The position numbers were made by a program, and so were the translations under genes. Under the pieces are notes generated by a model that worked only from the letters and a program-made list of their open reading frames with translations, had not been told where the DNA came from and made no database searches. Shown in pieces: positions 15,751-19,340 of a stretch of DNA of 51,754 bases. This stretch comes from Bacteroidales bacterium. GTDB lineage: Bacteria > Bacteroidota > Bacteroidia > Bacteroidales > UBA932. Location: NCBI GenBank assembly GCA_016290835.1, contig JAEEVG010000009.1, positions 1-51,754 of the forward strand, given 5' to 3'. Position 1 is the stretch's first letter. Each line of letters starts with the position of its first letter.

Positions 15751-17247
15751 CTATCCGCTGAAATCCACCTCGGCGAAGGCGAGGGTCGGGATGAGTTTGG
15801 TCTGGCAGGGACGGGCGTCGTCGCCCGCGGCGAGCAGTCTCGACCACAGGCCGAGCAGGTTCCCGGTCATCAGCATCCCGCTGACGGGCCGGACGATGCG
15901 CCCCTCCTCGAAGAGGAAGCCTTCGATCCCGTAGGAGAAGTCTCCGGTGACGGGATTGCTGTTGCCTCCGTTGAAATCGGTCACGAGGATGCCGCTGCCG
16001 CAGCGCTGCAGGATGGCGGCGCGGTCCAGGCCGGCTTCGGGCCAAGGGAGGACCTTGGGGCGCGTGGCATCTTCGATGGTGGGGGCGATCTGCATCTTGT
16101 TCGCCATATAGGTATTGACGAAATACTCCTTCACGACGCCCCGTTCGATGATGGGTGCCTCCACGGTGGTGACGCCTTCGGAGTCGAAGTACTTGGAGCA
16201 AGTCTGTCCCGGGATGCGGGGCAGGTCCAGGATGGTGAGGCCTTCGGGGAAGACCTGCTGCCCGAGGCTGTCCATCAGGAAAGAGTTGTTCTGCTGGATG
16301 GAGTAGGCGCTCAGGGCCCGGAGCAGGGGAGAGACCAGTTTGGCGGCCATCTCGGCGTCGATGACGGCGGTGTAGCGGCCGCTCGGGGCGGGAGCGGAGC
16401 CGATCTGGGCGACGGCGCGCTCGAGGGCGCGGCGGCCGCAGGCGGGGGCGTCGAGGCCGGCGGCGTGCGAGCACGCATCCCACCAATAGCCGCTGTACTT
16501 ATCCCCGCCGCTCTCGACCGTGATCTCGACCCCATAATCGAACGAAGTCTCCCGATGCCGGCAACACACCCCGTTCGTATCCATCACCACTGTCTCATAA
16601 ATACTATCACTATACTCACCCTCCTCCGACACAATCTGAAAATCCTTACCTTCGTCCTCGTAATGATTGCTCCACGGTAGCCCGGGTCCACTGTTGTCCG
16701 TCTTCTCTGCAGCGGGAACTGCTTCCGGGAACCGTGCCACCCTCGGCATCGTAAGAGGGGGGACCGCAAAGCGGTGGGGTCCGAAGGACGTTCCAGGAGG
16801 CAGTTGCCCGCTGCGAGAAGAAAATAACACAGAGGCGTCGAGGGCGATTTGCTGGCGGTCGGCAGGGGAGCGCCGCTCGCGGACGGCATCCACCAACCCG
16901 AGCTCATCCCCCGTCAGCGCATCCCGGCAACAACGAGCCGGATCCGGCAAATCCCGGAAAACATCCTCCGACACCATCCGCGTCGTCGCCACAGCCCGCT
17001 CGATAAAACCCTCCAGCGACACCGCATCTAACTTATTCGTCGAATATGTCCCGAAACGCCCGTCCACGAACAACGCCAGATTGAGCGACCGGTCGGCACA
17101 ATGCGTCACCCGGTCCACTTCGCCGTCCAGGGTCGCCACCAGATCCTCCTCGCTCTTCGAAAGCGTCGCCCGCGCCTTCTGCGCGCCGAAACGCCGCGCC
17201 ATCTCGAGCGCCTCCCGGACAAAATCCAATTCCTTGTCAGTGATCAT
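15751..17247 (-). CDS. tldE: TldE/PmbA-type metalloprotease subunit with inserted palindromic element
   Basis: 498 residues from the ATG at 17245-17247 (MITDKELDF), preceded by GGAGGAG; a TTG five codons upstream is less likely. The N-terminal domain (ALEMARRFGAQKARATLS) and C-terminal barrel domain (YTAVIDAEMAAKLVSPLL, GNSNPVTGDFSYGIEGFLFE, ISGMLMTGN-like) are the PmbA/TldE pattern; it lacks HExxxH, as TldE subunits do. It forms a heterodimeric protease with TldD that degrades unfolded peptides and matures peptide antibiotics. Residues about 142-182 are an in-frame, Pro/Ser/Arg-rich insertion encoded by a 121-bp palindromic element, making it about 45-60 residues longer than usual. It follows tldD by 1 bp. 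Confidence 0.9.
   Translation of the reverse strand: MITDKELDFVREALEMARRFGAQKARATLSKSEEDLVATLDGEVDRVTHCADRSLNLALFVDGRFGTYSTNKLDAVSLEGFIERAVATTRMVSEDVFRDLPDPARCCRDALTGDELGLVDAVRERRSPADRQQIALDASVLFSSRSGQLPPGTSFGPHRFAVPPLTMPRVARFPEAVPAAEKTDNSGPGLPWSNHYEDEGKDFQIVSEEGEYSDSIYETVVMDTNGVCCRHRETSFDYGVEITVESGGDKYSGYWWDACSHAAGLDAPACGRRALERAVAQIGSAPAPSGRYTAVIDAEMAAKLVSPLLRALSAYSIQQNNSFLMDSLGQQVFPEGLTILDLPRIPGQTCSKYFDSEGVTTVEAPIIERGVVKEYFVNTYMANKMQIAPTIEDATRPKVLPWPEAGLDRAAILQRCGSGILVTDFNGGNSNPVTGDFSYGIEGFLFEEGRIVRPVSGMLMTGNLLGLWSRLLAAGDDARPCQTKLIPTLAFAEVDFSG
16701..16821. repeat. palindromic element inserted in tldE (copy E)
   Basis: Inverted arms 16701-16732 and 16790-16821 pair over about 30 bp with two one-base bulges and one mismatch; the ends are TCTTCTC/GAGAAGA. 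Between them lie three hairpins: CC-A-CCCTC (16737-16744) with GAGGG-G-GG (16755-16762) around the loop GGCATCGTAA; ACCGC-AAA-GCGGT (16763-16775); and GTCC-GAA-GGAC (16779-16789). This gives a four-way-junction fold. The core matches the element in tldD. The element is translated in frame. Confidence 0.8.
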
Positions 17248-17248
17248 C

Positions 17249-18769
17249 TTACTCTCCTCCAACCGTTAAACGACCGATCAACACCGACGGAATCCCGCAC
17301 GACACCGCCGCACTCTGCTCTTTGCCGCAAGTCCAGGTCCCCTCGTCAATCTTGAGATCCCCGGCCACGCCCTGGATATCGGCGAGCGCCTGCGGACCGT
17401 TGCCGATGATGTTGATATCCTTGATCGGCATCGTCAGGCGCCCCTTCTCGATGAGGAACCCGCTCTTGACGAAGAAGGTGAAATCCCCCTCGCCGATCTT
17501 GACCTGCCCGTTGGCGAACTGATCCACGTATATGCCTTTCCGCACCGATGCAATCAGATCCTCCCGCGTCCCGTCCGGACCGCTCTCCATATACGTGGCG
17601 CGCATCCGCGGAATGGGATTGTAGCGGAACGACTCCCGCCGCCCGTTGCCCGTCGGGGCCACGCCGTACCAGGCGGCGCTGATCCGGTCGTGCAGATAGG
17701 AGGTCAGGCGGCCGTCCGTGACCATATAGGTCTTTTGTCCCGGGACACCCTCGTCATCGACATTCAGGGCCCCGCGGCTGGCGGGCAAGGTGCCGTCGTC
17801 GAGGATGTTGATCCCCGGACGACAGATCTGCTTGCCCATCTTGTCGCTGAAAATGGACTGCCCCTTGCGGTTGAAATCCGCCTCGAAAGCGTGGCCCATC
17901 GCCTCGTGGAGCAGGATGCCGGAAGCCCCGGCCCCCATCACGACGCTCATCTGGCCGCCCTTCGGCCGCCGCGCCTCGAAACGGGCATCCATCCCCGCGA
18001 CGGCGCGGCTGACGAGATCCTCCAGGACAGCGTCGCTGATCATCTCGGCGCCCATGCGCAGACTGCGCGAGACGGTATTGTTCTCGGTGCGATTGCCCTG
18101 CCGGAAGATGACCTGCACCGACAGACTTCCGAGGGGACGATGGTCGGCGGTCAACTCACCGAGCGAATTGTACATCAGGATATCGCTGACCGAATACGAA
18201 AGCACCGCCACGACCTTCAGCACGCGGCTATCCCGCGCCCGGATCCCCCCCTCAATCCGCTGCAAAAACGGCACAAACCCCGCCACCTCCGCATCCTCCC
18301 AGGGAGTTAGCTCGCTATAGAAGGAAGCCATCGCGTGCGGAGTGGAGGCGGCAGTCGGGTCTGAAAACCGTAGCCGCCCTCGGCTTCGTAAGAGGGAGGG
18401 GCCCGCTGCCGAAGGCAGTGGGAGGGGTCCGACGCAGTCGGACGTTTTCAGACCCGGGCTGCCGCGTAACGGAGCAGCGATGGCTGCATTGGCAATGGAA
18501 CCCGCGGCGCGGGCAGCAGCCCGCAGCGAAGCGAAATCCGTCGACTCCGCATACGCATACCCCGTCTTCTCCCCCTTGAGCACCCGGACCCCGCACCCGA
18601 AATCCACATGATAACCCCCCGACCCCACCACGCCGTCGCGAAGCAACAAATCGTGATAGGACGTATCCTCGAAATACAGATCGCACCAATCGCCCCCGGC
18701 GGAGAGACCCTCCGCCACGAGCGCACGCAACTGCTCTTCGGTTATCCCGAAACGCTCACAATGACTCAT
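17249..18769 (-). CDS. tldD: TldD-type zinc metalloprotease subunit with inserted palindromic element
   Basis: 506 residues from the ATG at 18767-18769 (MSHCERFGI); a TTG at 18781 also opens the frame. The zinc motif is clear in LLHEAMGHAFEADF (HExxxH) near residue 275, followed by GTLPASRGALNVDDEG, YMVTDGRLTSYLHD and, near the C-terminus, IDEGTWTCGKEQSAAVSCG. It is the catalytic partner of TldE. Residues about 101-140 form an in-frame Pro/Ser/Arg-rich insertion encoded by a 118-bp palindromic element, at a different place from the one in tldE. The start overlaps the end of the zeta-like kinase gene by 14 bp; tldE follows after 1 bp. Confidence 0.92.
   Translation of the reverse strand: MSHCERFGITEEQLRALVAEGLSAGGDWCDLYFEDTSYHDLLLRDGVVGSGGYHVDFGCGVRVLKGEKTGYAYAESTDFASLRAAARAAGSIANAAIAAPLRGSPGLKTSDCVGPLPLPSAAGPSLLRSRGRLRFSDPTAASTPHAMASFYSELTPWEDAEVAGFVPFLQRIEGGIRARDSRVLKVVAVLSYSVSDILMYNSLGELTADHRPLGSLSVQVIFRQGNRTENNTVSRSLRMGAEMISDAVLEDLVSRAVAGMDARFEARRPKGGQMSVVMGAGASGILLHEAMGHAFEADFNRKGQSIFSDKMGKQICRPGINILDDGTLPASRGALNVDDEGVPGQKTYMVTDGRLTSYLHDRISAAWYGVAPTGNGRRESFRYNPIPRMRATYMESGPDGTREDLIASVRKGIYVDQFANGQVKIGEGDFTFFVKSGFLIEKGRLTMPIKDINIIGNGPQALADIQGVAGDLKIDEGTWTCGKEQSAAVSCGIPSVLIGRLTVGGE
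18348..18465. repeat. palindromic element inserted in tldD (copy D)
   Basis: Inverted arms 18348-18368 and 18444-18465 pair over 20 bp (GCGGCAG, small internal loop, then CGGGTCTGAAAAC). Three hairpins lie between: CC-G-CCCTC (18374-18381) with GAGGG-A-GG (18392-18399) around the loop GGCTTCGTAA; a 9-bp stem CCCGCTGCC-GAA-GGCAGTGGG (18402-18422); and a 7-bp stem GTCCGAC-GCA-GTCGGAC (18427-18443). Same order and fold as copy E, with different arm and stem sequences. Translated in frame, but with the core in another reading frame than in tldE. Confidence 0.8.
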
Positions 18770-19340
18770 CCGGATGTGCAATATTCCAAATTAATTGATA
18801 CTTCTCGCTGTCCTTGATATAAATGAGGTCCTTCGATCCCTCGGCGACGATCGTGAACGGCGGTTTGGAATTGTCCGCCAGGATCCAGTTGTCGATCACC
18901 GGAATATAGCTCTCGAAAAAATACTGCAGCCCCATCACATAACGCCGCCGCACCACCGGATCGGGGATGTTGTGCCCCCCGGTCAGCACCCGGTCGTGCA
19001 CCCGCTGGATCGCCATCTCGGGCGAGGCGAGCCAGAAATACAGCACCGTCACCTCATAACCCGCCCCCTGCGCCTCCCGCACAATCTTGATCAGCGAGCG
19101 CGTGGCCAGGGTCGTCTCCACGGCGAAATCCTCCCGGCGCTCCAGTAAATAGTTGATTTTCATCAACATATACCGGCTGGCCGTGACCGATGCGGAGGCG
19201 GGGTTGAACGGGGAGAGGCTCTTCGCGAATTCATCGGAATTCACGAACTCCCGGCAATTCAAAAAATCCGGCAAGAGGGTATATGACGCCGTAGTCTTGC
19301 CGGATCCGTTGCAGCCCGATATGATGTAGAGCTTGGGCAA
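18756..19340 (-). CDS. zeta-toxin-like P-loop kinase
   Basis: 194 residues. Walker A is ISGCNGSGKTTAS (about 7-19), followed by the substrate region REFVNSDEFAKSLSPFNP and TTLATRSL, and the lid-like VHDRVLTGGHNIPDPVVRRRY, which together match COG4185/zeta toxin-family ATPases. True zeta toxins phosphorylate UDP-GlcNAc; chromosomal relatives of this size are uncharacterised. No epsilon-type antitoxin gene is adjacent, and it sits inside an operon of housekeeping genes (after pepD, overlapping tldD by 14 bp), so a toxin role is doubtful. Confidence 0.75.
   Translation of the reverse strand: MPKLYIISGCNGSGKTTASYTLLPDFLNCREFVNSDEFAKSLSPFNPASASVTASRYMLMKINYLLERREDFAVETTLATRSLIKIVREAQGAGYEVTVLYFWLASPEMAIQRVHDRVLTGGHNIPDPVVRRRYVMGLQYFFESYIPVIDNWILADNSKPPFTIVAEGSKDLIYIKDSEKYQLIWNIAHPDESL

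Follow-up and report, generated by a model that had tools for sequence, protein, structure and literature searches.

A family of small folded elements residing in tldE, tldD and other loci of gut and rumen Bacteroidales

The window analyzed here, a stretch of 51,754 nucleotides comprising positions 1 to 51,754 of contig JAEEVG010000009.1 (assembly GCA_016290835.1, a Bacteroidales bacterium), contains two copies of one folded element. One sits in a linker of tldE and the other in a linker of the neighboring gene tldD, both in frame and antisense. The two hairpin clusters belong to a family of small, probably mobile DNA elements of gut and rumen Bacteroidales that had apparently gone unnoticed. 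An earlier note, made from the letters of the window, had described them as a shared junction fold with compensating changes. In the following list, H1 to H3 are the three hairpins of the core, S1 and S2 the two stems of an H-type pseudoknot, R1 the covariance model of the family, and A3 and A4 two alignments of its copies.

15751-17262, minus strand: host gene tldE/pmbA, Pfam TldD/PmbA family; several insert-free relatives have a short linker at the site
17249-18781, minus strand: host gene tldD (TldD metalloprotease family), from Pfam and alignment to PDB 5nj5
16709-16814, plus strand: element copy 1 (type A core), inside tldE/pmbA, antisense; R1 match 16722-16800, 81.1 bits; the open reading frame (ORF) is stop-free across the copy
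16709-16732, plus strand: copy 1, 5' arm, pairing with 16790-16814
16733-16738, plus strand: copy 1, 5' strand of pseudoknot stem S1 (CGTGCC), partner 16745-16751; S1 covaries in A3 and A4
16740-16759, plus strand: copy 1, H1; S2 5' strand 16740-16744, loop made of the S1 3' strand 16745-16751 and TAA 16752-16754, S2 3' strand 16755-16759
16763-16775, plus strand: copy 1, H2, 5 bp, loop AAA (sequence and DNA fold)
16779-16789, plus strand: copy 1, H3, 4 bp, C(GAA)G triloop (sequence and DNA fold)
16790-16814, plus strand: copy 1, 3' arm, pairing with the 5' arm (DNA fold)
18349-18464, plus strand: element copy 2 (type B core), inside tldD, antisense; R1 match 18358-18454, 109 bits
18349-18368, plus strand: copy 2, 5' arm (CGGCAG, a 2-nt interruption, 12 bp), pairing with 18444-18464
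18369-18375, plus strand: copy 2, 5' strand of pseudoknot stem S1 (CGTAGCC), partner 18382-18388 (GGCTTCG)
18377-18396, plus strand: copy 2, H1; S2 5' strand 18377-18381, S1 3' strand 18382-18388, TAA 18389-18391, S2 3' strand 18392-18396
18402-18422, plus strand: copy 2, H2, 9 bp, C(GAA)G triloop (RNA fold; the DNA centroid has H2, and the DNA minimum-energy fold pairs the stretch otherwise)
18427-18443, plus strand: copy 2, H3, 7 bp, C(GCA)G triloop (DNA fold)
18444-18464, plus strand: copy 2, 3' arm, pairing with the 5' arm (DNA fold)
18326-18334, plus strand: outer inverted repeat X (AGCCATCGC) in the tldD coding sequence beside copy 2, mirrored at 18477-18485 (own-pair match)
18477-18485, plus strand: outer inverted repeat X' on the opposite side of copy 2 (own-pair match)

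The near-identical first hairpin reported in the earlier note was recovered as CCCTCGGCWTCGTAAGAGGG at 16740-16759 and 18377-18396 and nowhere else in the window; 100 shuffled versions of the window gave an expectation of 0.00, also with 3 mismatches allowed. The purine-purine mismatch is indeed swapped between the copies (A·G at 16739/16760, G·A at 18376/18397), and the reported hairpin lengths of 5 and 9 bp for H2 and 4 and 7 bp for H3 were read from the sequence as well. Both copies folded better as DNA than 200 of 200 shuffles (z of -4.42 for copy 1 and -4.74 for copy 2), and RNA folding with shuffles, which was run for copy 2 only, gave z of -4.22. The first hairpin is read in different frames by the two genes (phase 2 and phase 1), as had been noticed. 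The observation that all three coding-strand frames are free of stops held for the H1-H3 core and for copy 1 with its arms, but not for copy 2 with its arms, where one frame has one TGA in an arm. The insert in tldD occupies the linker which matches residues 115-131 of E. coli TldD in the alignment to PDB 5nj5. Relatives of the host gene include several from Candidatus Cryptobacteroides at 70-80% identity, and the nearest, many of them from rumen, reach up to 93%. Judged by these sequences, the genus carrying the element is probably Candidatus Cryptobacteroides.

The element is dispersed. The exact 20-mer of the shared hairpin occurred 9 times in the genome of origin and its reversed control did not occur; when 3 mismatches were allowed, the reversed control gave 1 match. 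The covariance model R1 was built from 9 copies, with L002 (extra insert) and L012 (long H2) left out, and L011, which is without the fold, was removed from the first alignment. The scan that the earlier note had proposed returned additional copies with conserved pairing, neither an empty result nor matches lacking the pairs. R1 matched 21 copies in the genome of origin, and among the genomes of 101 relatives it matched 50 of the 61 from the same genus and 1 of the 40 others. In a set of 295 genomes of the order five had matches, namely the genome of origin, G226 (another genus of the same family, 5 copies) and members of three other families, G278 (11 copies), G308 (3 copies) and G087 (1 copy), and G141, the second genome of the genus in that set, had no R1 match; these genome counts are lower bounds due to the stricter filters used in the large searches. 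For further study, 165 copies, mostly the best-scoring among the matches listed, were placed in two alignments, A3 (108 matches, 107 distinct rows) and A4 (57 matches, 56 distinct rows).

A feature overlooked in the earlier note is that the first hairpin is one half of an H-type pseudoknot. The loop of H1 (GGC-W-N-CG) pairs with the stretch immediately upstream (CG-T-A-GCC) to form S1, and the hairpin stem itself is S2. The proposed test for covariation was carried out, and pairing was conserved with covariation in both alignments, although the copies are phylogenetically non-independent and kinship inflates the counts that follow. In the distinct rows of A3, 97.0% of cells were paired compared with 77.5% after shuffling, and the covariation of the whole structure was 0.523, compared with 0.163 in shuffles and at most 0.107 in slid controls. 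By stem, the share of paired cells was 99.7% for S1 (3 of 6 pairs altered on both sides), 99.4% for S2 and 94.5% for the arm helix (11 of 11 pairs altered on both sides). The A4 alignment gave 97.6% paired cells and a covariation of 0.588 against 0.162 in shuffles (99.7% for S1, where 5 of 6 pairs had changes on both sides, 100.0% for S2 and 95.4% for the arms). The structure of R1 includes the arms and S2, so the counts for those stems are biased towards the model. The covariation of S1 was not created by R1, because R1 holds only two S1 bases, and those in other pairs. Two kinds of nested insertion were seen in the pseudoknot. At about 1098-1218 of L024 (G000, contig C15) it is interrupted by another GC-rich palindrome flanked by a short core repeat, and the tldE copies L069 5560-5695, L070 5499-5652 and L066 5508-5592 carry a second insert of about 60 nt (GCCAGCAAGCTGGC...) within it.

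Mismatch counts revealed which strand folds. With identical A3 rows counted once, G·T exceeded A·C on the plus strand by 77 to 18 in total over arms, outer arms and S1, that is 41:9 in the arms, 29:7 in the adjoining 8 bp (97 rows in which 6 or more of the 8 pairs were Watson-Crick) and 7:2 in S1; arm mismatches of the A·G type numbered 38 and of the C·T type 3. The large excess of G·T therefore indicates that the plus strand folds and that one strand is under structural selection. The apical loops of H2 and H3 were examined in 143 unique inner regions with the anchor found, which yielded 142 H2 and 89 H3 hairpins. C(GNA)G, with all four bases at N, closed 117 of the 231 hairpins and C(GNNA)G closed 17, compared with 15 and 8 of 1038 in host windows of equal length and 14 and 11 of 1007 in shuffles. 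Loops of the GNRA type numbered 3 of 231, all three equally of the form C(GNNA)G, and no UUCG loop was found among the 231. The cGNAg and cGNNAg loops are exceptionally stable in DNA, while RNA prefers GNRA and UUCG. The dominance of C(GNA)G and the lack of UUCG therefore favor a folded DNA strand over RNA, and the plus strand probably folds as single-stranded DNA. Of the earlier proposal of selection on a DNA or RNA fold, the selection thus stands, and the evidence leans to single-stranded DNA.

Residence in protein genes was assessed by a codon-usage walk outward with a margin from each copy, for which 157 copies were scorable and 8 near contig ends were dropped; it replaced a call in 180-nt windows that was too noisy (51 in-frame, 57 one-sided and 6 edge copies of 165). 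Among the scorable copies 74 of 157 lay in frame within a coding sequence, as did 53 of 131 outside the tld loci (40-47%, which are shares and not enrichment figures). In-frame insertion into unrelated protein genes, a feature of the Rickettsia palindromes, was found together with empty sites. The coding copies were antisense to the mRNA in 50 of 74 cases, and outside the tld loci 32 were antisense and 21 sense. In the 165 copies two frames were open on the plus strand in 110, and two or three on the minus strand in 153. These counts lead one to expect antisense and sense copies at roughly 3:2, close to the 32:21 observed. Over the model span the opposite strand was stop-free in all three frames in 80 of 165 copies, against 12.6 expected from composition shuffles. 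The earlier suggestion of an element compatible with life inside genes agrees with these results, since many copies lie within coding regions and stops are scarcer in the element than expected. Intergenic copies were found in 10 convergent and 9 divergent gaps. As a minor observation, one-sided coding calls placed intergenic copies upstream of a gene (16+10) more commonly than downstream (5+6).

Occupied and empty alleles were found at orthologous sites. In the gene of a FAD-dependent protein (Pfam FAD-depend_C), for which 30 loci were fetched and the site was displayed in 17 (5 occupied, 12 without the element), the element sits in one loop in G058, G008, G000, G015 and G137. At the same place G105 has only KVVSISDGFVVKTADG and G120 only KVTSIQDHVVKTADG, their proteins being 93% and 92% identical to that of G058, and ten less similar relatives are likewise without the element. 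A SAM-dependent methyltransferase gene was occupied in G008 and G105 and empty in the near relatives G000, G120, G137 and G058, and a SpoU-type methylase gene was occupied in G105, G008, G058, G137, G000 and G047 and empty in G120 and G036. The PG_1098-like gene carried the element in G105, G058 and G120 and was without it in G000, G137, G015 and G008 (70-73% identical), and the occupied L101 and the empty L102 are about 90-93% identical alongside. Among 80 fetched tld loci the element was present at the tldD site in 11 (12 matches) and at the tldE site in 9. Subfamily and orientation differed at the same site in different species. The empty sites show that copies have been gained or lost in frame.

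The arms are unlike in sequence and still pair, as the earlier note had claimed for the two copies of the window; 20-30 bp remain paired despite wide divergence between subfamilies. Arm sequences are related within a subfamily and within a clade, and terminal inverted repeats, which in MITEs are shared among copies, are here common to the copies of an intergenic burst in G105, partly shared within the tld clade, and unlike between most subfamilies. Pairing extends beyond the model. In the 159 of 165 copies that were compared (6 too close to a contig end were omitted), a local score of at least 10 between the next 20 nt of the two arms was reached by 106 of the 159 own pairs, against 1 of 636 cross pairs. 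Outside the arm a further inverted repeat, specific to the locus, was present in many copies of G000, G008, G015, G027 and G058 and in the tld loci, at a near-fixed distance of about 19-23 nt to the left and 16-24 nt to the right of the model. Examples are 18/18 bp in L184 and 17/17 in L180, and the outer window (14-40 nt) scored at least 10 in 21 of 159 own left-right pairs, against 1 of 636 cross pairs. When set against empty alleles, the outer repeat seems to consist of host sequence on one side and an inverted copy of it on the other. In the FAD gene, GGAAAT on the right of the element in G058 and G008 complements the host-left ATTTCC and is absent from the empty alleles. In tldE the host-left TCGGTCTTCGCC (codons SVFA) recurs inverted in L063 and L134 and as a variant in L065, and its inverted form was not seen in L067, L068, L073 and L075. 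In the methyltransferase gene the right side resembles the host and the left side the copy; in five genes inspected by eye the inverted host copy showed no fixed polarity. The tldE locus L063 resembles arms without a core, and the tldD locus L068 bears two unlike half-arms.

Taken as a whole, we consider it fairly probable that these are non-autonomous mobile elements defined by their fold, similar to the Rickettsia palindromes, whose arms are renewed with each other and with host DNA as templates. The element would consist of a core of about 80-100 nt (the pseudoknot S1/S2 and two hairpins) closed by a long self-complementary stem, and would be tolerated in protein loops and between genes. 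A structure-specific enzyme acting in trans may read its plus strand as folded single-stranded DNA, for example when that strand is exposed on the lagging-strand template. The stem may be kept complementary, re-made and lengthened into the host by copying one arm off the other, either at insertion through fold-back synthesis or later through template switching in replication, and such copying could also account for the inversion of elements in place between species. The element would be selfish rather than regulatory, with host selection retaining copies that preserve the frame and lie in loops.

Several results weigh against this explanation in whole or in part, in addition to the kinship and the score-based choice of the copies. 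No mobilizing gene was identified. In A3 the signal was weak by one covariation measure, the number of double-changed pairs, which was 16 compared with 13.9 in shuffles and was reached by 9 of 500 shuffles. A strong outer repeat was lacking in 138 of 159 copies, and the side of the original flank showed no tie to element orientation. In G105 eleven intergenic copies are nearly identical, and the left arm is common to ten of them over all the length that the contigs cover, so that at least one subfamily spreads with its arms, and the outer repeats of this burst appeared by eye to be shared and not locus-specific. Orthologous tldD copies have diverged to a similar extent on the left and right, which suggests re-copying after insertion. 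The copies of the G105 burst (L318-L324 and L326-L329) and L022 (G000) have fixed long arms, several stand at contig ends, and they are composite with a repeat, CCGGAATGCTGCTCGCAGGC.

A more specific mechanism would be that insertion itself copies the host flank in inverted form, as an inverted target duplication, that the single-stranded DNA pseudoknot is the recognition signal, and that each hop adds an arm so that nested arms record earlier sites. The near-fixed offset of the outer repeat from the core favors an origin at insertion, and the tldD divergence described above favors later re-copying; this mechanism is put forward as a tentative possibility, less likely than not.

The plus strand might instead be a structured RNA (non-coding, cis-regulatory or ribozyme) which has turned repetitive. 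The pseudoknot, with loops of 1 nt and 3 nt, has an RNA-like geometry which, with the preference for G·U far above A·C, would suit RNA too and speaks to that extent against folded DNA, and the strong covariation is also as expected. This seems rather unlikely, however, because most coding copies are antisense to the mRNA, convergent and divergent gaps are used about equally without preference for a transcript side, and the loops are mainly C(GNA)G, with no UUCG and with the few GNRA loops all C(GNNA)G too. Rfam gave no match either; with Rfam 15 nothing matched in 16000-19200 of the window at E≤1, and at the gathering score only two tRNAs were recognized in 6 element loci, the element itself being unmatched. 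A terminator or regulatory RNA was rejected as the principal explanation on the same grounds of prevailing antisense copies, the 10 convergent and 9 divergent gaps and the lack of an Rfam match.

The earlier note had pointed to repetitive extragenic palindromes (REPs) and their REP-associated tyrosine transposases (RAYTs), and the element could be a large REP-like palindrome moved by a Y1 (HUH) transposase of the genus. Y1_Tnp was detected in 46 of 61 genomes of the genus, and the two co-occurred across genomes (43 genomes with both, 7 with the element only, 3 with Y1 only, 8 with neither; Fisher p 2.5e-4, confounded by phylogeny and uneven completeness). The fold is of the single-stranded DNA type, and TnpA-REP is described as processing folded single-stranded REP (PMC8266576). 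Linkage did not bear this out, and we regard membership in the REP/RAYT system as decidedly unlikely and the link to Y1 as weak. Only 1 of 32 Y1 loci has the element (L167, about 4 kb off; 12 of the loci had a flank of only about 1.5 kb), at least 6 of 9 inspected Y1 loci carry different palindromes of their own, and a RAYT-like gene lies near 1 of 148 element loci (L185; 9 query proteins). The GTAG tag is not conserved, and the GTAG-like bases sit in the covarying S1. Unlike palindromes adjoin the Y1/RAYT-like genes of L155, L157, L158, L161, L167 and L169, one of them in a short tandem array.

That there is no mobility, with old palindromes kept and spread solely by replication template switching and recombination between copies, is most improbable, for although template switching is reported to homogenize inverted-repeat arms and invert spacers in coding DNA (PMC8604942) and to make compensatory stem changes (PMC8794818), and the unlike half-arms in L068 tldD and the different subfamilies in the same linkers across species would fit, it accounts for the arms and not for dispersal, that is, the same core in unrelated genes and intergenic sites, the empty orthologous sites in relatives and the 11 near-identical copies in G105.

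Mobile palindromes that sit within genes are already known, from the Rickettsia elements (PMC10969869) and from REPs within genes (PMC3733652). The palindromic elements of Rickettsia measure about 150 bp and lie in frame within numerous unrelated genes (PMC10969869), and they are said to lose repeat identity over time (PMC6649704). Our elements resemble them as palindromes in frame within unrelated genes and are set apart, by the descriptions, by another taxon, the covarying pseudoknot, arms that stay complementary and host-derived inverted flanks. REPs resemble the present element as high-copy palindromes with G·T pairs in their stems, some within genes, and CGTC-tagged ones are reported in Bacteroidetes (PMC3733652). 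They are acted on as folded single strands (PMC8266576), as the present element may be. Unlike the present core of about 80-100 nt, whose GTAG-like stretch varies with its S1 partners, REPs are 20-40 bp and GTAG- or CGTC-tagged, and no examined Y1 gene was flanked by the element. In the coding palindromes of Nematomorpha mitochondria, complementary arms in coding sequence are gained and lost, with template switching considered (PMC6649704). Arms kept complementary in coding sequence are common to both, but there the arms encode conserved protein, while here a conserved core lies between the arms in many genes. A published element with a covarying pseudoknot as its core, loops of the DNA type and inverted arms derived from the host was not found in the literature searched, most subscription papers lying outside it.

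Considered as a whole, the earlier interpretation kept its fold, further copies, covariation and coding residence and lost its RAYT linkage, and the pseudoknot and inverted host flanks were added to it. With its many copies, and with linkers that are occupied in some species and empty in others, the family offers a natural data set for asking how short palindromes can spread through genes whose proteins survive, and how the long arms of the hairpins remain complementary as their sequence is replaced. Should the fold be recognized as single-stranded DNA, a pseudoknot would be an uncommon kind of signal for mobile DNA. Integron attC sites are recognized by their single-strand fold and not by sequence, which is a likeness only, and no membership is proposed. 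Proteins of gut and rumen bacteria gain extra loops which differ between species, and the inverted host copies around some elements offer a way to study how folded DNA travels and alters proteins.

A small ORF adjoins tldD at 18756-19340 on the minus strand; with Pfam matches to Zeta_toxin and AAA_33, it is likely an ordinary P-loop kinase-like gene.

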